Made by a program: the position numbers and the translations under genes. The notes below the pieces were generated by a model that saw only the letters and a list, made by a program, of their open reading frames with translations, was not told where the DNA came from and searched no databases. DNA of 64,000 nt. Source: Myxococcus eversor (GTDB taxonomy: Bacteria; Myxococcota; Myxococcia; Myxococcales; Myxococcaceae). Every line of letters begins with the position of its first letter. Within the stretch, counting starts at the first letter, position 1. This document shows, piece by piece, positions 5,687 through 13,629 of the stretch. The stretch covers positions 1 through 64,000 of the forward strand of contig NZ_JAAIXY010000028.1 in NCBI RefSeq assembly GCF_010894455.1. The letters run 5' to 3'.

Positions 5687-8203
5687 ATGCCCTCTTCGAG
5701 CGACAGCCCGAGCCTGCCCCTCCACGTCGGGAAGGGTGTGTCCGGCGAGGAGGAGGAGTGCCTCTTCGAGGCCGTCGTCACCAGCATGGCGGAGGGTGTG
5801 ACGGTGGCGGACGAGCGGGGCCGTTTCGTCTTCGTCAACCCCACCGCGGCGCGATTGCTGGGCGTGAGCGTCGCCGACACGGACCTCTCCCACTGGTCCG
5901 AGCACTACGGGCTCTTCCTTCCGGACCAGCGAACCCCCTATCCCCCGGAGGACCTGCCCCTGGCGCGCGCCATCCGGGGCGAGTCGATGAGCCAGGTGGA
6001 GATCTTCCTGCGCAACCCGGTGAGGCCCGAGGGTGCCTGGCTGCTGGTGAGCTGCCGGCCGGTGTGGGACGCGCGGGGCGCCATCCGGGGCGGGGTCGCC
6101 GTCTTCAACGACATCACCGAATTCAAGCGGGCCGAGCAGGCCCTGCTCGAGAGCGAGCAGAAGTACCGGACGCTCTACAACAACACGCCGGTGATGATGC
6201 ACTCCATCGACTGTGACGGGCGGCTGGTGAGTGTCAGCGACTGCTGGCTGGCCACGCTGGGCTATTCGCGCGAGGAGGTGCTGGGCCACCACTCGGTGGA
6301 GTTCCTGTCGGAGGAGTCCGCGAGGTATGCCAGGGAGAAGGTCCTCCCCGTCTTCTTCATGACAGGCACCTGCAAGGACGTGCCGTATCAGCTCGTGAAG
6401 AAGAACGGCGAGCGCATGGACGTGCTGCTGTCCGCCATCGCCGAGCACGACTCGAAGGGCAGATGGGTCCGCTCGCTCGCCGTGCTGCTCGACGTGACGG
6501 AGCGCAAGCGCACCGAGGAGGCCCTCCAGCAGAGCGAGCGGCAGCTGCGCGCCATCCTGGACAACGCCAACTCCCTCTTCGTCCTGCTCGACACCCAGGG
6601 CCGCTACATCTTCGTGAACCGGCAGTGGGAGCGGCTGTTCCATCGCACGCGCGAGGAAGTCACCGGCAAGACGGTGCATGACGTCTTCCCGCCCGACATC
6701 GCGGACGGCTTCCAGGAGATGACCGAGTCGGTGCTCCAACTGCGCGCGCCCCTGGTCCAGGAGGAGCGCATCCCCCAGGAGGACGGCGTCCACACGCACA
6801 TCACCCAGAAGTTCCCGCTCATGGACGCCTCGGGAGTGCCCTACGCCGTCTGCGGCATCTCCACGGACATCACCGAGCGCAAGCGGATGGAGGAGGCGCA
6901 GCGGTTCCTCGCCGAGGCGAGCCGGGAGCTGGGCACGTCGCTGGACTACGAGGCGACGCTCCAGCACGTCGCGGAGCTGACGGTGCCCCGGCTGGCGGAC
7001 GTGTGTGTCGTCTTCATCCCGGGAGAGGGCGCGCGACTGCGGCCCGTGGCGGTCGCGGCCCATCAGCCCGGCCAGGCCGAGGACGTGCGGGAATTGCTCG
7101 CGGCCCACCCGCTGCTTCCGGATGCGACGCGGGGGCCGGTGGCGGTGATGGCGACGGGGCGCTCGGAGTGCTCGCTGTTGCCGGGGGGCATCCTGGACGA
7201 CCAGGGTGAGCGGCTGGACGCGAAGCAGTGGCGCCGCGTGCGAGAGCTGGGCGGGCGGCCCTCCCTCAGCGTGCCGCTCCATGCGCGCGGCCGGAGCCTG
7301 GGGGTGCTGACGCTCCTGGCGGCGTCGCGGTCCTCGCGAAACTTCAGCGAGGACGAGGTGGCGCTGGCGGAGGAGCTGGGACGCCGCGCGGCCTTCGCCA
7401 TCGACAACGCGCAGCTCTACCGCAAGTCCCAGGAGTCCATCCGCGTCCGCGATGAGTTCCTCTCCATCGCCTCGCATGAGCTGAAGACGCCGCTCACCTC
7501 CATGAAGCTGCGCATGCAGCAGATGGGGGCGCTCCTGTCGCGGCCCCGTCCCGACTCGCCGCTCGCGGCCCGGCTGTCGAGCATGCTGCTCGTCTGCGAG
7601 AGCCAGCTCTCCCGGCTGTCACGCCTGGTGGAGCACCTGCTGGATGTCTCCCGCATCCACGAGTCGCGGCTCGCGCTGCGCCTGGAGGAGATGGACCTGG
7701 CCGTGGTCGCGCGCGACGTGGCGGCCCACCTGCGGGAGCAACTGGAGAAGGCGGGCTGCGAGCTGGTCCTGGAGGCGCCGGAGTCGTTGCCGGGCCGGTG
7801 GGACAGGCTGCGACTGGAGCAGGTGATGATGAATCTGCTGACGAACGCGGTGAAGTATGGGGCGGGCCAGCCCATCTGGTTGCGGCTGGCCTCCCACGGC
7901 GAGCGGGTGTGGCTGAGCGTGGAGGACCGGGGAATGGGCATCCCCCGGGAGGCCCAGGCGCGCATCTTCGAGCGCTTCGAGCGCGCCGCCTCACCCAACT
8001 ACGGCGGGCTGGGCCTGGGCCTCTTCATCACCCGGCAGATTGTCGAGGCCCATGGCGGCCGGGTGTGGGTGGAGAGCGAGCCGGGGCGGGGCGCCCGCTT
8101 CGTCGTCGAGCTGCCCCAGTGGACTCACGGCAGCGGGCCTTCCACCAGCCGCAGCACGTCCGCCAGCACGCCGGACGCCGTCACCGCCGCGCCCGCGCCG
8201 TAG
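5687..8203 (+). CDS. Cytoplasmic sensor histidine kinase, PAS-PAS-PAS-GAF-HisKA-HATPase
   Basis: An 838-residue orphan sensor kinase with no membrane segment. Three PAS domains (about residues 20-140, 150-275 and 285-400, each ending in a DITE or DVTERKR-type connector) are followed by a GAF domain (about 410-575), the HisKA dimerisation domain with the phospho-acceptor H-box ASHELKTPL, and the ATPase domain (N-box NLLTNAVKYG, then GMGIP and GLGLGLFI). It should autophosphorylate on His and pass the phosphate to a response regulator not found in the window. The last 26 codons run antisense into the 3' end of thrA: the two convergent genes overlap by 79 bases. The start ATG lacks a clear ribosome site. 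Confidence 0.92.
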   Translation: MPSSSDSPSLPLHVGKGVSGEEEECLFEAVVTSMAEGVTVADERGRFVFVNPTAARLLGVSVADTDLSHWSEHYGLFLPDQRTPYPPEDLPLARAIRGESMSQVEIFLRNPVRPEGAWLLVSCRPVWDARGAIRGGVAVFNDITEFKRAEQALLESEQKYRTLYNNTPVMMHSIDCDGRLVSVSDCWLATLGYSREEVLGHHSVEFLSEESARYAREKVLPVFFMTGTCKDVPYQLVKKNGERMDVLLSAIAEHDSKGRWVRSLAVLLDVTERKRTEEALQQSERQLRAILDNANSLFVLLDTQGRYIFVNRQWERLFHRTREEVTGKTVHDVFPPDIADGFQEMTESVLQLRAPLVQEERIPQEDGVHTHITQKFPLMDASGVPYAVCGISTDITERKRMEEAQRFLAEASRELGTSLDYEATLQHVAELTVPRLADVCVVFIPGEGARLRPVAVAAHQPGQAEDVRELLAAHPLLPDATRGPVAVMATGRSECSLLPGGILDDQGERLDAKQWRRVRELGGRPSLSVPLHARGRSLGVLTLLAASRSSRNFSEDEVALAEELGRRAAFAIDNAQLYRKSQESIRVRDEFLSIASHELKTPLTSMKLRMQQMGALLSRPRPDSPLAARLSSMLLVCESQLSRLSRLVEHLLDVSRIHESRLALRLEEMDLAVVARDVAAHLREQLEKAGCELVLEAPESLPGRWDRLRLEQVMMNLLTNAVKYGAGQPIWLRLASHGERVWLSVEDRGMGIPREAQARIFERFERAASPNYGGLGLGLFITRQIVEAHGGRVWVESEPGRGARFVVELPQWTHGSGPSTSRSTSASTPDAVTAAPAP

Positions 8204-10578
8204 CCCCGGATGACCAGCGGCGTGGGGCTGTAGCGCTCGGAGAGGAAGCTGAGCGCGTTCTCTCCGCCCTTCACCGCCGCCAGCGGGTTCTCCAGCGGCA
8301 CGGCCTTGAGGCCCACCGCGCAGCCTTCCTCCCCGACGCTGCCCACGTACCGCAGCACCTTCCCCTCGTCGCGCAGGCGCTCCACGCGGCGCTGGAAGTC
8401 CGCGTCGATGCTCGGCAGGCGCGCGAGGAACGCGTCGAGCGGGCCCGTCGCGTCGAAGTCCGCGGGAAGGAGCGACTCCAGGGCCACCTGCTCCAGCTCC
8501 ACGACGCGCCCCAGCTCCCGGGCGAGGATGAGCACCTTGCGCGCCACGTCGGTGCCCTGCAAATCGTCGCGAGGGTCCGGCTCCGTGAAGCGCTTCTCCA
8601 TGGCCGTGCCCACCGCCTGGGACAGCGGCACGCCCTGCTCGGTGAGGCCGAGGATGAAGGACAGCGAGCCGGAGAGGATGCCCTCAATCCGGCGCACCTG
8701 GTCTCCGGTGCGCAGCATGTTCTTCAGCGTGTCGATGACGGGCAGGGCCGCGCCCACGTTCGTCTCGTACAGGAAGCGGCGCTGGTGGCGGGAGGCCGTC
8801 TCGCGGATGGCGCGCCAGTGGGCCATGCGGCCCGCGTTGGCCTTCTTGTTGGCGGTGACGACGTGGAGCCCCGAGGCCAGGAGGGACGGGTAGGCGAGCG
8901 CCACGTCCTCGCTGCTGGTGCAGTCCACGAAGATGGGGCGTCCCGGGCGTCTCTCCCGCGCCTGCTCGCGGAAGGCGTCCATCGACGCGGACACGGTGCC
9001 CGCCTCCAGCTTCTCCTTCCACTGCTCCAGGGGGATGCCCGCGGGCTCGATGACGCCCTTGCGGCTGTTGGCGATGGCGCACACGCGCAGGTCCACGCCC
9101 TGGGCGCGCAGGTGGGGGGCCTGCTGACGAATCTGCCGCATCAGCTCTCCGCCCACGCTGCCCACGCCGGCCACCAGCAGCTCCACCACCTCCGTGGTGC
9201 CGAAGTAGCGGTGGTGTACGTGCGCCATGGCGCGGGGGCCGTCCGCCTCGGTGATGACGGCGGAGATGCTGCGCTCGCTGGAGCCCTGGGCGATGGCGGC
9301 GATGCTGCAACCCACGTCCGCCAGGCCGCTGAAGAAGGTGCCGGCCACGCCCACGCGGTGGCGCATGCCGTCGCCGACGATGCTGAGCACCGCCAGCTGT
9401 CCCTGGCGCTCAATCGCGTCCACCTTGCCGGCCTCGCGCTCCACCTCGAACTCGGACTCCAGCGCGCGCACGGCGGCCTCGGACTCCGCCTGCTGCACGC
9501 AGAAGCTGATGGAGCACTCGCTGGAGCCCTGGGTGATGAGGACCACGGAGATGCCGGTGCGGGCCATGGCCGCGAAGACTCGCGCGGCGGTGCCGGGGAC
9601 GCCCTTGAGGCCCGCGCCCGCGATGTTGATGAGCGCCACGTCGCGCAGGAAGGACAGGCCTCGCACCGGGTGGTCCGGCGGGGCGGCGGAGTCCGTCACC
9701 AGGGTGCCGGGGTGCTCGGGGCGGAAGCTGTTGCACACGCGCACGGGGATGCCGCGCTCGCGGGCGGGGGCAATCGTCTTGGGGTGGAGTACCTTGGCGC
9801 CGAAGTACGCCAGCTCCATCGCCTCCTCGAAGCTGACTTCCGCCAGCGGGAAGGCCTCCGGGACGAGGCGCGGGTCGGCGCTGAAGATGCCGTCCACGTC
9901 CGTCCAGATTTCGAGCAGCTTCGCATCCAGCGCCGCCGCGGCCAGCGCCGCCGAGTAGTCCGAGCCTCCCCGGCCCAGCGACATCGTCTTGCCGCGCCCG
10001 TCGCCGCCGAAGAAGCCCGGCATCAGCAAGAGCCCGGGGCCCGTGTCATCGCGCAGCGAGGCGAAGCGCACGCGAATCTCGTCCATGCGGGGCGTGGCCT
10101 GCAGCGGGTCCCCCGAGCAGATGAGGATGTGACGCGGATCCACCGCGTGGGGCGCCAGCTTGCGCGCCGACATCAGCGCCTCCAGCAGCAGACAGGAGGC
10201 GCGCTCACCCAGGCCGGACAGGTGGGCGAGCACCGAGGGAGAGCACTCGCGCAGCAGGCCCACGCCCTGGAGCAGCCCGCGCAGCTCGGTGGAGATGGCC
10301 GCGAGCCCCAGCTCCAGCGGCGCGAGCGCCTCCAGCTCGCTTCCCAGCTCCCGGGCGATGGAGAGGTGGGTCTGCTCGAAGCGGGAGAGCGCCGCGTCCA
10401 CCTCGCCGCCCTCCTGGGCCACCCGCGCCGTGTCCACCAGGAGGTTGGTGATGCCGGTGACGGCCGAGGCCACCACGCACACCCGCGTCTGCCTGCGCGC
10501 CTGCTCCACCAGGTCCACCACGCGCCGTATCTGCGCGGTGCCGCCCACGCTCGTCCCCCCGAATTTCATCACCCGCAT
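8125..10578 (-). CDS. thrA: Bifunctional aspartate kinase / homoserine dehydrogenase I
   Basis: Catalyses the first and third steps from aspartate to homoserine, the branch leading to threonine, methionine and isoleucine. The 817 residues match the fused ThrA layout: aspartokinase domain beginning MRVMKFGGTSVGG, two ACT regulatory domains (about 315-460), then homoserine dehydrogenase with the nucleotide-binding motif LVAGVGSVGGELM and the conserved DLQGTDVARK region. Start at 10578 has GAGG seven bases upstream. There is no thrB or thrC beside it; it is a single-gene unit. Upstream lies a complete threonine attenuator (10682-10864), so expression should rise when charged tRNA-Thr is scarce. 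The ACT domains add feedback inhibition. Confidence 0.96.
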   Translation of the reverse strand: MRVMKFGGTSVGGTAQIRRVVDLVEQARRQTRVCVVASAVTGITNLLVDTARVAQEGGEVDAALSRFEQTHLSIARELGSELEALAPLELGLAAISTELRGLLQGVGLLRECSPSVLAHLSGLGERASCLLLEALMSARKLAPHAVDPRHILICSGDPLQATPRMDEIRVRFASLRDDTGPGLLLMPGFFGGDGRGKTMSLGRGGSDYSAALAAAALDAKLLEIWTDVDGIFSADPRLVPEAFPLAEVSFEEAMELAYFGAKVLHPKTIAPARERGIPVRVCNSFRPEHPGTLVTDSAAPPDHPVRGLSFLRDVALINIAGAGLKGVPGTAARVFAAMARTGISVVLITQGSSECSISFCVQQAESEAAVRALESEFEVEREAGKVDAIERQGQLAVLSIVGDGMRHRVGVAGTFFSGLADVGCSIAAIAQGSSERSISAVITEADGPRAMAHVHHRYFGTTEVVELLVAGVGSVGGELMRQIRQQAPHLRAQGVDLRVCAIANSRKGVIEPAGIPLEQWKEKLEAGTVSASMDAFREQARERRPGRPIFVDCTSSEDVALAYPSLLASGLHVVTANKKANAGRMAHWRAIRETASRHQRRFLYETNVGAALPVIDTLKNMLRTGDQVRRIEGILSGSLSFILGLTEQGVPLSQAVGTAMEKRFTEPDPRDDLQGTDVARKVLILARELGRVVELEQVALESLLPADFDATGPLDAFLARLPSIDADFQRRVERLRDEGKVLRYVGSVGEEGCAVGLKAVPLENPLAAVKGGENALSFLSERYSPTPLVIRGYGAGAAVTASGVLADVLRLVEGPLP

Positions 10579-10681
10579 GACGGCACCTCGCGGCGGACGG
10601 AGGGGCGCGAGGCGGCGGACTGTCGGAGCGTCGTCGGAGTCTGGGTCTGCATGGGGTTCCGTCTGGGTGTGGAGGGAAACG

Positions 10682-10711
10682 AAAAAAGCCCCGCGCCGGG
10701 GAGCGCGGGGC
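10682..10711 (-). terminator. Attenuator terminator (3:4 hairpin) of the thr leader
   Basis: Read on the minus strand: nine-bp perfect G/C stem GCCCCGCGC with GCGCGGGGC (10711-10703 with 10696-10688), six-base loop, then TTTTTT (10687-10682). It is a textbook intrinsic terminator placed before, not after, thrA, about 100 bases upstream of its start codon, which marks it as a regulatory terminator. Confidence 0.93.
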
Positions 10712-10738
10712 CAGGTCGGAAGTGCTGCCGGTTCCGAG

Positions 10739-10864
10739 CTAGACCTCCCGCGCTCCGCGGGGAGTCGTGGTGGTGGTCGTCGTAGTCGTCGTGGAGGGAG
10801 CGGTCGCCGCGCGCGCGAAGGACGAGGACGTCTGTCCCGGGGTCCACGCGAAGTCGGAGCGCAT
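10739..10864 (-). CDS. thrL: Threonine operon leader peptide (41 aa)
   Basis: A 41-residue peptide, ATG at 10864 and TAG at 10741-10739. Thirteen residues are Thr, ten of them consecutive (codons 25-34, coded 10792-10763: five ACG, three ACC, two ACT). No Ile codon occurs, unlike the enterobacterial thr leader, which senses both Thr and Ile. Its role is to report charged tRNA-Thr to the attenuator; the peptide itself is presumably degraded. The ribosome site is weak; an in-frame GTG at 10873 is an alternative start. The symbol is used by functional analogy, not by sequence homology. Confidence 0.88.
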   Translation of the reverse strand: MRSDFAWTPGQTSSSFARAATAPSTTTTTTTTTTPRGAREV

Positions 10865-10949
10865 GCCGTTCACGAAGTGGAACGCTGACCGATGACCCCG
10901 GTGCGAGTCAAGCCGCCCTCCCAGCCGGGCAGGCGAGGGCCGCGTCGCC

Positions 10950-12524
10950 TCAACCGTCCCAGGCCACCTGGTGGAGCGTCAGCGCGTCCTGCTTGCCCTT
11001 GACCCGGGTGGGCGGCAGCGTCGTCAGGCGCCATGTCGAATCGCGCAGCCGCGTGCGCGTGGCATCCGAGAGGACGACCTCTCCCGCCCGGGCCACGCCG
11101 CACACGCGACTGGCCACGTTGGTGACGTCGCCCAGGGTGGCGTACTGGAGATAGCGCTCGGAGCCGATGTTGCCCGCGGCGGCGGGCCCGCTGTTGAGGC
11201 CCACGTGGATGCGCAGCTCCGGATGTCCCTTGGCGCGAAAGCGCGCGTTGAGCGCCACCAGCGCGCGCTGCATGTCCACCGCGGCGCGCAGGGCCCGGTC
11301 CGCGTCGTCCTCGCGGGAGAAGGGCGCGCCCCAGACGGCCATCAGCGCGTCGCCGATGTACTTCTCCAGCGTCCCCTCGTGGCGGAAGACGGCGTCCGCC
11401 ATCACCGGGAAGTACTCGTTGAGCATGTCCACGACTTCGCGCGGACGCAGCGACTCGGACAGCGGCGTGAAGTCGGAGATGTCGGCGAAGAGCACCGTCA
11501 CCTCCGTCTCCACCACCTCCAGCATGGCGCCCGGGGACGCGTTGAGTCTGCGCACCACGGCGGGCGGGAAGAAGCGCAGGTACGTGTTGCGCAGCACGGC
11601 CTCCTCTTCCAACCGCCGCGAAAGCCTGGCGTTGTCGATGGCGACCGCCGCCTGGTTGGCGAAGGCGGTGAGGAACTCCAGGTCCTCCTCGGTGAAGAGC
11701 CCGCCCTGCGAGCGGTTGTCCACGTAGAGCACGCCCAGCCAGGTGTCGCGGGGCCGCAGGGGCACGCACATGGCGGAGAGGATGGCCTGCGCGCGGATGG
11801 AGGCGGAGCTGTCCAGGCGCAGGTCGCCCTGGGCGTTGGCGAACAGCGACGCCAGCCCATGCTCCCTGACGAAGTCGACGATGCGCTGGCTGTAGAAGCG
11901 CTCGGGCGGCGTCTCACCGTTGGCCGCGCGTGTCACGCGGGGGCGCAGCTCACCGGTGGCCTCGTCCACCAGCAGCAGCGCCGCGCGGTCCACGCCGAGG
12001 ATGCGGAAGACGAGCTGGAGGATGCGCTCCAGCAGCGTGTCGAGCGCGCCAGGGGACGAGAGCAGCTGCGCCACGGCGAGCAGCACCTGGAGCCGCTCCC
12101 GGGTGAGGTCGCCCGCGGGCTCCGGCCGCACCCGCAGCCTGGGCGCGTCCGCGTCCAGCAGCGTCTCCAGGGGAGACAGGGTGAAGCGCGTGTCCAGCGT
12201 GCGCGTGTGCAGCGGGCTCAGCTCCTCCTCGGGCGCCGGGTCGCCCGCGAGCAGCTGGAACCACACCTCGCCGCAGCGGAAGGCGTCGCCCTCCTGGAGG
12301 ATGTGTCGCTCGACGCGGACCTCGCCCAGGAAGGTGCCGTTCTTGCTGCCCTGGTCCACCAGCACCACGCGCGAGCCCTGGCGCTCCAGCCGCGCATGGC
12401 GCCGCGAGAGGCTCTTGTGGAGCACGCAGACGGAAGCCTCGTCCGTCCTGCCGATGGTGGTGGTGCCCTCGGGGAGCAGGAGCTCCTGCTCTCCCTCCCG
12501 CCCGGGGTTGAGGATGAGGCGCAT
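10950..12524 (-). CDS. Class III adenylate cyclase with FHA and GAF domains
   Basis: A 524-residue soluble cyclase. An N-terminal FHA domain (about residues 5-95; GRTDEASVCVLHKSLSRRHA, then GSKNGTFL) should bind a phosphothreonine peptide, hence input from Ser/Thr kinases. A GAF domain follows (about 150-310). The catalytic domain (from about 345) has the metal site FADISDFTPL, the substrate Lys in GTLEKYIGDA and the YATLGDVTNVASR segment, where Thr favours ATP over GTP. I start at ATG 12524 because the FHA strand begins there; the frame is open 34 codons further but would overlap the upstream transporter gene. It probably makes cAMP in response to kinase signalling. Confidence 0.9.
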   Translation of the reverse strand: MRLILNPGREGEQELLLPEGTTTIGRTDEASVCVLHKSLSRRHARLERQGSRVVLVDQGSKNGTFLGEVRVERHILQEGDAFRCGEVWFQLLAGDPAPEEELSPLHTRTLDTRFTLSPLETLLDADAPRLRVRPEPAGDLTRERLQVLLAVAQLLSSPGALDTLLERILQLVFRILGVDRAALLLVDEATGELRPRVTRAANGETPPERFYSQRIVDFVREHGLASLFANAQGDLRLDSSASIRAQAILSAMCVPLRPRDTWLGVLYVDNRSQGGLFTEEDLEFLTAFANQAAVAIDNARLSRRLEEEAVLRNTYLRFFPPAVVRRLNASPGAMLEVVETEVTVLFADISDFTPLSESLRPREVVDMLNEYFPVMADAVFRHEGTLEKYIGDALMAVWGAPFSREDDADRALRAAVDMQRALVALNARFRAKGHPELRIHVGLNSGPAAAGNIGSERYLQYATLGDVTNVASRVCGVARAGEVVLSDATRTRLRDSTWRLTTLPPTRVKGKQDALTLHQVAWDG

Positions 12525-12603
12525 GGAGCGGGGGATGCTAACACCCGCCCGCGGGCCTCCCGAAGGAAGTGGCCGGCGCGGGCGGGCGGACGCGGCGTGA
12601 GGC

Positions 12604-13629
12604 TCAGCTCGCCAGCCGGACGACAATCTGGGTAAGCCCGTAGACGAGCAGCGCCATGAGCGCGGCGGCGGGGATGGTGATGACCCAGGCCCAGATGATG
12701 CGACCGGCCACGCCCCACTTCACCGCGCGCCAGCCGCGCGTGGAGCCCACTCCGACGATGGCGCCGGTGATGGTGTGGGTGGTGGACACGGGGATGCCCA
12801 GCTCCGCCAGGGCGATGATGGTGACGCCGCCGCCCGTCTCCGCGCTGAAGCCGCCGATGGGCGCCAGCTTCGTGAGGCTGTGGCCCATGGTGCGGATGAT
12901 GCGCCAGCCGCCGAAGAACGTGCCCAACGCAATCGCCGCGTGACAGGAGATGATCATCCACCAGTCGATGTGGAACGGGCGGTCCTTCCAGATGGTGCCG
13001 AAGAGCACCACGGCGATGATGCCCATCACCTTCTGCGCGTCGTTGGTGCCATGGCTGTACGAGAAGATGGCGGACGACACGAGCTGGAGCCGGCGGAACC
13101 ACCGGTCCACATAGGTGGGCGTCTGCTTGTGCACCACCCAGGTGCTGATGAGCATCAGCGTCATGCCCAGGAACGTGCCGATGAGCGGCGAGAGCACGAT
13201 GAAGGCGGCGATCTTCGCGATGCCCGCGCCCATCAATCCCTTGAAGCCCAGCACCGGCACCGTCGCGCCAATCATTCCACCGGCGAGCGCGTGCGACGAG
13301 GAGGAGGGCAGGCCCCACCACCACGTCAGGAGGTTCCAGGCGATGGCGCCCATCAGCGCCGCGAAGATGACCGACAGCACGGCCGAGGGGCCCGCGCCGC
13401 GCAGCATGTCGAAGTTGATGATGCCCTTGCCCATGGTGTTGGCGACATGGACACCCCCGCTGAAGGCGGCGATGAAGTTGAAGAAAGCGGCCCACGCCAC
13501 GGCCAGGTTCGGTGACAACACCCGGGTGGACACCACCGTGGCGATGGAGTTCGCCGCGTCGTGGAAGCCGTTGATGAAGTCGAAGATGAGGGCGACTCCA
13601 ACTATCAGGATGACGGCCGCGAGTAGCAT
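12604..13629 (-). CDS. pit: PiT-family inorganic phosphate transporter
   Basis: A 341-residue integral membrane protein of the low-affinity phosphate:cation symporter family. It has about ten hydrophobic segments and the two family signatures as an inverted duplication: GFHDAANSIATVVSTRVL near the N-terminus and SYSHGTNDAQKVMG in the middle. Its start codon lies one base after the stop codon of the DUF47 gene, so translation is probably coupled. DUF47-PiT pairs are a standard module in which DUF47 is thought to control the transporter. Confidence 0.93.
   Translation of the reverse strand: MLLAAVILIVGVALIFDFINGFHDAANSIATVVSTRVLSPNLAVAWAAFFNFIAAFSGGVHVANTMGKGIINFDMLRGAGPSAVLSVIFAALMGAIAWNLLTWWWGLPSSSSHALAGGMIGATVPVLGFKGLMGAGIAKIAAFIVLSPLIGTFLGMTLMLISTWVVHKQTPTYVDRWFRRLQLVSSAIFSYSHGTNDAQKVMGIIAVVLFGTIWKDRPFHIDWWMIISCHAAIALGTFFGGWRIIRTMGHSLTKLAPIGGFSAETGGGVTIIALAELGIPVSTTHTITGAIVGVGSTRGWRAVKWGVAGRIIWAWVITIPAAALMALLVYGLTQIVVRLAS

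Follow-up and report, generated by a model that had tools for sequence, protein, structure and literature searches.

The thrA gene of Myxococcus eversor appears to be preceded by a classic ribosome-mediated transcription attenuator, which would sense Thr-tRNA and raise thrA expression when threonine is low (probability roughly 0.93). The window, that is, the whole stretch of 64,000 nucleotides that was analysed, carries on its minus strand a leader ORF whose end is closely followed by a GC-rich hairpin and T6; from there it is 103 nt to thrA. The features of the locus are the following:

10950-12626, minus strand: FHA-GAF-nucleotide cyclase gene, the upstream neighbour, with its stop at 10950
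10906..10911, minus strand: putative -35 element TTGACT, found in all sampled members of the window's genus
10882..10887, minus strand: putative -10 element CAGCGT, an aligned column in all sequences (TAGGAT in the second genus)
10739..10873, minus strand: leader peptide ORF, GTG start, 44 codons, MNGMRSDFAWTPGQTSSSFARAATAPSTTTTTTTTTTPRGAREV
10763..10792, minus strand: 10 consecutive Thr codons (ACN), the presumed sensor, Thr-rich in every relative
10756..10766, minus strand: segment 1, protector of segment 2 in the predicted 1:2 helix
10742..10756, minus strand: segment 2, the last five codons of the leader, pairing with segment 3
10700..10711, minus strand: segment 3, common to antiterminator and terminator, its core GGCCCCGCGCTC invariant in 25/25 sequences
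10682..10712, minus strand: intrinsic terminator from the terminator scan, comprising the 3:4 hairpin (10712-10687) and T6 (10687-10682)
10569..10652, minus strand: second short ORF, 27 codons, MQTQTPTTLRQSAASRPSVRREVPSCG, overlapping thrA by 10 nt, with GGAA ahead of its ATG
8125..10578, minus strand: thrA, bifunctional aspartokinase / homoserine dehydrogenase I, 817 aa, the presumed regulated gene (NCBIfam PRK09436, 988.6 bits; cut-off 726)

The leader, which translates as ...AATAPS-TTTTTTTTTT-PRGAREV followed by the stop, is a small ORF of a sort often missed by gene callers. The run of ten Thr codons and the lack of Ile codons reported in the preliminary description were confirmed at 10792-10763, and a scan of the 11.4 Mb genome returned this as the only place with a run of at least eight ACN codons. 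The start proposed there, ATG 10864, would give a peptide of 41 codons with 13 Thr and no Ile, ending at the TAG of 10741-10739; this start was not conserved and had to be abandoned for GTG 10873, three codons off, which is the conserved one. The start (GTG or ATG, in one aligned column) and the stop were kept in 29 of 30 sequences, and the leader measured 41-46 aa with 9-15 Thr, one decayed copy of the 30 excepted.

The comparison used thrA orthologues, 79-97% identical, of two genera in one family: that of the window (Myxococcus in the wide sense; the labelled relatives were Pyxidicoccus caerfyrddinensis and Myxococcus vastator) and a second one, presumably Corallococcus. The alignment of 29 upstream regions contained a conserved block that extends from the TTGACT box through the T-tract. 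When segments 1-4 were searched for with a covariance model at E below 0.001, a single match was obtained in each of 27 genomes of the window's genus and 15 of the second genus, and no match in the other 103 genomes of the order; across 195 genomes of the phylum, the extra matches were marginal only (E above 0.001). The element was adjacent to thrA wherever both shared one contig. Other myxobacteria had been named beforehand as the place to look for conservation, and the Thr-rich leader and its hairpins were indeed retained next to thrA in both genera. What is established directly is the presence of the parts in the sequence, how far they are conserved, their one-to-one link to thrA and their potential to pair.

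The putative -35 and -10 elements were separated by 18 nt in all sequences but one, in which the spacer was 19 nt. The -35 column read CTGACC or CTGAAC in the second genus, and the -10 element of the window's genus is a weak match to TATAAT (A2 and T6 only). The start codon of the leader was located 7-9 nt past the -10 element in the aligned sequences, and no Shine-Dalgarno-like 4-mer was found ahead of it in the sequences examined from the window's genus; in the second genus, Shine-Dalgarno-like bases precede the leader start and overlap the -10 element. Given this short distance from a conserved -35/-10 pair, and a start that in the window's genus lacks a Shine-Dalgarno, the leader mRNA is likely to be leaderless or nearly so, with a transcription start deduced from the promoter geometry. 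The preliminary description had missed this probable leaderless promoter, as well as the enrichment of ACU among the Thr codons of the run and the additional short ORF that overlaps thrA.

A four-segment attenuator had been claimed with stems of 6 bp (1:2), 12 bp with a bulge (2:3) and 9 bp (3:4). The three pairings exist and are mutually exclusive, as described, although the stem lengths differ slightly: 1:2 consists of 6+4 bp, 2:3 of 10 contiguous bp plus an inner hairpin, and 3:4 of nine standard pairs plus two G-U. The terminator scan detected three overlapping terminators against 0.1 expected from shuffles. Among 25 sequences, the nine core pairs of 3:4 were intact in every one, 94% of cells were paired in 2:3, where 6 of 10 pairs never vary, and 87% were paired in 1:2. 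No compensatory changes were observed in the arms of these 25 sequences, which are nearly invariant; this near-invariance fits segments that would each serve two pairings, and it does not constitute covariation evidence. The distance from the leader stop to the terminator arm was 25-28 nt in most of the window's genus, 31-32 nt in two of its members and 36-41 nt in the second genus. The fold energy of the whole leader was ordinary for such GC-rich DNA (z -0.89), so the case rests on conservation; the part comprising segments 2-4 folded better than most shuffles (z about -2.4).

When the leader of the window was folded at equilibrium, the predicted probability of the terminator was 0.94 as long as segment 1 was free; it fell to 0.01 when the exposed RNA began at 10763, where segment 1 is partly covered, and was 1.00 once segment 2 was covered. 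Masking of segment 1 thus flipped the predicted fold from terminator to antiterminator; the preliminary description had proposed such masking and had pointed out that the leader stop adjoins segment 2, so that a ribosome finishing the peptide would mask it. With the usual ribosome footprint, an exposure edge at 10763 corresponds to a ribosome stalled near Thr codons 6-7, and by the same arithmetic the first four Thr codons lie too far upstream for masking segment 1. The dip in terminator probability was weak or absent in several relatives (e.g. L092, L110 and L008). The same folding applied to gammaproteobacterial thr leaders produced no dip in 6 of 7, indicating that the test is not diagnostic, and the missing dip was for this reason not counted against the relatives. 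Attenuation is decided during transcription, so the absence of a dip at equilibrium says little.

From these features we infer the transcription start, the actual stalling, the termination and the response to threonine, as follows. RNA polymerase would begin the transcript on GTG 10873 or no more than a few bases from it, and ribosomes would load directly on this 5' end, without the help of a Shine-Dalgarno. Under ample Thr-tRNA, the ribosome would reach the TAG at 10741 and cover segment 2, the 3:4 terminator would form and transcription would stop at T6 (10687-10682). Under scarce Thr-tRNA, the ribosome would halt in the Thr run, most effectively around codons 5-8 according to the fold predictions, and its leading edge would cover segment 1; segment 2, left free, would pair with segment 3, no terminator would form and the polymerase would read on into thrA. 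A leader that is not translated would be expected to form 1:2 and 3:4, which would end transcription.

Between the terminator and thrA, a second short ORF of 21-28 codons that ends 4 or 10 nt inside thrA was found in 30 of 30 sequences, with a frame filter that is partly circular, the same frame being seen without it for most sequences. Its role is probably translational coupling, by which the ribosomes that enter it would probably be passed on to thrA. The first ten codons of this ORF were rich in Thr (80 of 300 codons in the 30 sequences), and the ORF showed no sign of amino-acid selection in the same set. The idea that the second ORF sequesters the thrA Shine-Dalgarno was considered and rejected: such pairing occurs in the window, where the site is predicted to be paired (unpaired 0.04), but it is not conserved, and its ranks scatter against shuffles in the relatives. 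A two-tier switch, with a leaderless ACU-tuned poly-Thr leader that sets transcription and a Thr-rich second ORF that adds translational control, is rather unlikely; if true, thrA would be gated twice by Thr-tRNA within one transcript. The early Thr codons of the second ORF, its constant overlap with thrA and the paired Shine-Dalgarno of the window also favour a leader that acts mainly on translation or via Rho, in which stalling would alter access to a downstream site and the second ORF would be the real control point. We regard this as improbable, given that the terminator hairpin is invariant and the Shine-Dalgarno pairing is not conserved in relatives.

The gene upstream of the element varied among the relatives, being the FHA-GAF-cyclase, a phosphate transporter or neither, and since the element stayed with thrA while this neighbour changed, it belongs to thrA. 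The same observation argues against the hairpin and T6 being the ordinary terminator of the upstream gene, with the Thr-rich ORF as a chance translation of a simple repeat. The FHA-cyclase gene, on the same strand and with its stop at 10950, could use such a terminator, and repeat slippage can give ACN runs; however, that gene is separated from the hairpin by a conserved promoter, the arms switch from one pairing to another, and the Thr run is interrupted, ACT-enriched and in frame, which leaves this explanation highly improbable next to an attenuator of thrA.

The statement that thrA stands alone rather than in a thrABC operon was borne out, as the next gene downstream, for a PAS histidine kinase, is convergent, and other contigs carry the thrC candidates. 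No Thr-rich leader was seen at the thrA paralogue (C40) or at either of the two thrC candidates. No thrB-type homoserine kinase above the TIGR00191 cut-off was detected in the whole genome (best 22.5 bits), and for this reason the homoserine kinase step is probably served by another kinase. The FHA-GAF-nucleotide cyclase gene is situated between the phosphate transporter and thrA only in the closer relatives of the window; in most others of its genus the transporter directly adjoins the thrA locus. Opposite-strand ORFs (e.g. 10767-10895 on the plus strand, poly-Val) were read as shadows of the Thr run and of thrA, and the search for a phage origin gave no match.

Within the window's genus, the Thr run changed in length by whole codons and was sometimes interrupted by Ser, His, Arg, Ala or Pro; in the second genus it took the alternating T-x-T form TETRTRTGLTP. 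While the length of the run varied among the aligned relatives, the frame, the stop and the hairpin arms stayed fixed. ACT amounted to 12.7% of the Thr codons of the run (last codon excluded) versus 0.7% in thrA (Fisher p 4e-17, related sequences treated as independent), and to 0 of 71 Thr codons located earlier in the leader; in the sensor runs of 29 leaders, this rare codon (ACU) was thus enriched about 20-fold over the thrA coding sequence. Slow decoding, structure avoidance and slippage avoidance are possible reasons for the preference. In the early part of the leader, 247, 281 and 140 changes were counted at codon positions 1, 2 and 3, respectively, and these counts gave no sign of amino-acid selection on the N-terminal part. 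The Thr codons persist and the rest of the peptide drifts, as expected if the job of the peptide is to be translated. A leader peptide whose main action is that of a trans-acting small protein, attenuation being secondary, has a precedent in peTrpL of Sinorhizobium meliloti, whose leader mRNA is leaderless (PMC7298713), but it is scarcely credible here, where the N-terminal part changes more at codon positions 1 and 2 than at position 3, the opposite of a conserved protein.

The mechanism that we propose is known (textbook attenuation), both leaderless attenuator peptides and leaders of the poly-codon type have precedents elsewhere, and further leaderless attenuator peptide candidates have been described in Actinobacteria. 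The thrA element had no match to Rfam Thr_leader (RF00506) at the gathering score, and none was listed at E up to 10; the best Rfam matches obtained at relaxed thresholds were GC-rich sRNA hairpins, taken as chance, and no leader family was among the matches. Our literature search found no report joining Myxococcus, threonine, leader peptide and attenuation. The attenuation survey of Lopatovskaya et al. 2010 (cited in PMC4833913) may already list this element. On comparative sequence grounds, the element described here is a well-supported addition to the leader-peptide attenuators, outside Rfam Thr_leader.

The element shares with the enterobacterial thrL (RF00506) a Thr-coding leader peptide, a terminator, a thrA-type target and the same logic, and the gammaproteobacterial loci examined carried leaders such as ITTITTTTITTGNGAG, followed by a stop, at the same place. 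The enterobacterial leader contains both Thr and Ile codons, whereas only Thr is used here, a difference already pointed out in the preliminary description and sustained by the count of zero Ile in the last 20 codons of 30 leaders; the uninterrupted run is also longer, the start is probably leaderless, thrA is monocistronic and the rare ACU is used, the thr leader of E. coli having eight ACC codons (PMC1183508). In S. meliloti, the trpL leader ORF begins at the 5' end of the transcript and is followed by transcription attenuation (PMC7298713); the myxobacterial leader would be arranged alike, and the amino acid, the gene and the phylum differ. Leaders of this kind before thrA are not confined to gammaproteobacteria, since thrA genes of Acidobacteriota also carry them: at three loci of Holophagaceae (L007, L010 and L012), thrA was 50-57% identical and Thr/Ile leader ORFs were located ~40-300 nt upstream, with a start codon 6 nt past a -10-like hexamer. 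The leaders of L007 and L012 had a hairpin with a T-tract, and that of L010 was without a clear T-tract. A Thr-containing leader is common to both groups, whereas the hairpin sequences differ and the acidobacterial leaders include Ile; at L007 and L010, thrB and thrC come after thrA. The myxobacterial element, as read from the DNA, is set apart by a poly-codon sensor restricted to Thr, a start that is probably leaderless, the preference for ACU, a solitary thrA and a second ORF that overlaps it. It extends thr attenuators to myxobacteria and offers a natural comparison of poly-Thr with alternating-Thr sensors, a decayed copy and a rare-codon bias inside the sensor only, by which models of the codons and positions that set attenuator sensitivity become testable in a second lineage.

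The decayed natural copy (L109, G028:C11) lies upstream of thrA and carries a deletion by which segment 2 is shortened and the leader put out of frame. The shifted peptide runs into the terminator arm, where a stopping ribosome could block the terminator, which might release thrA from control.
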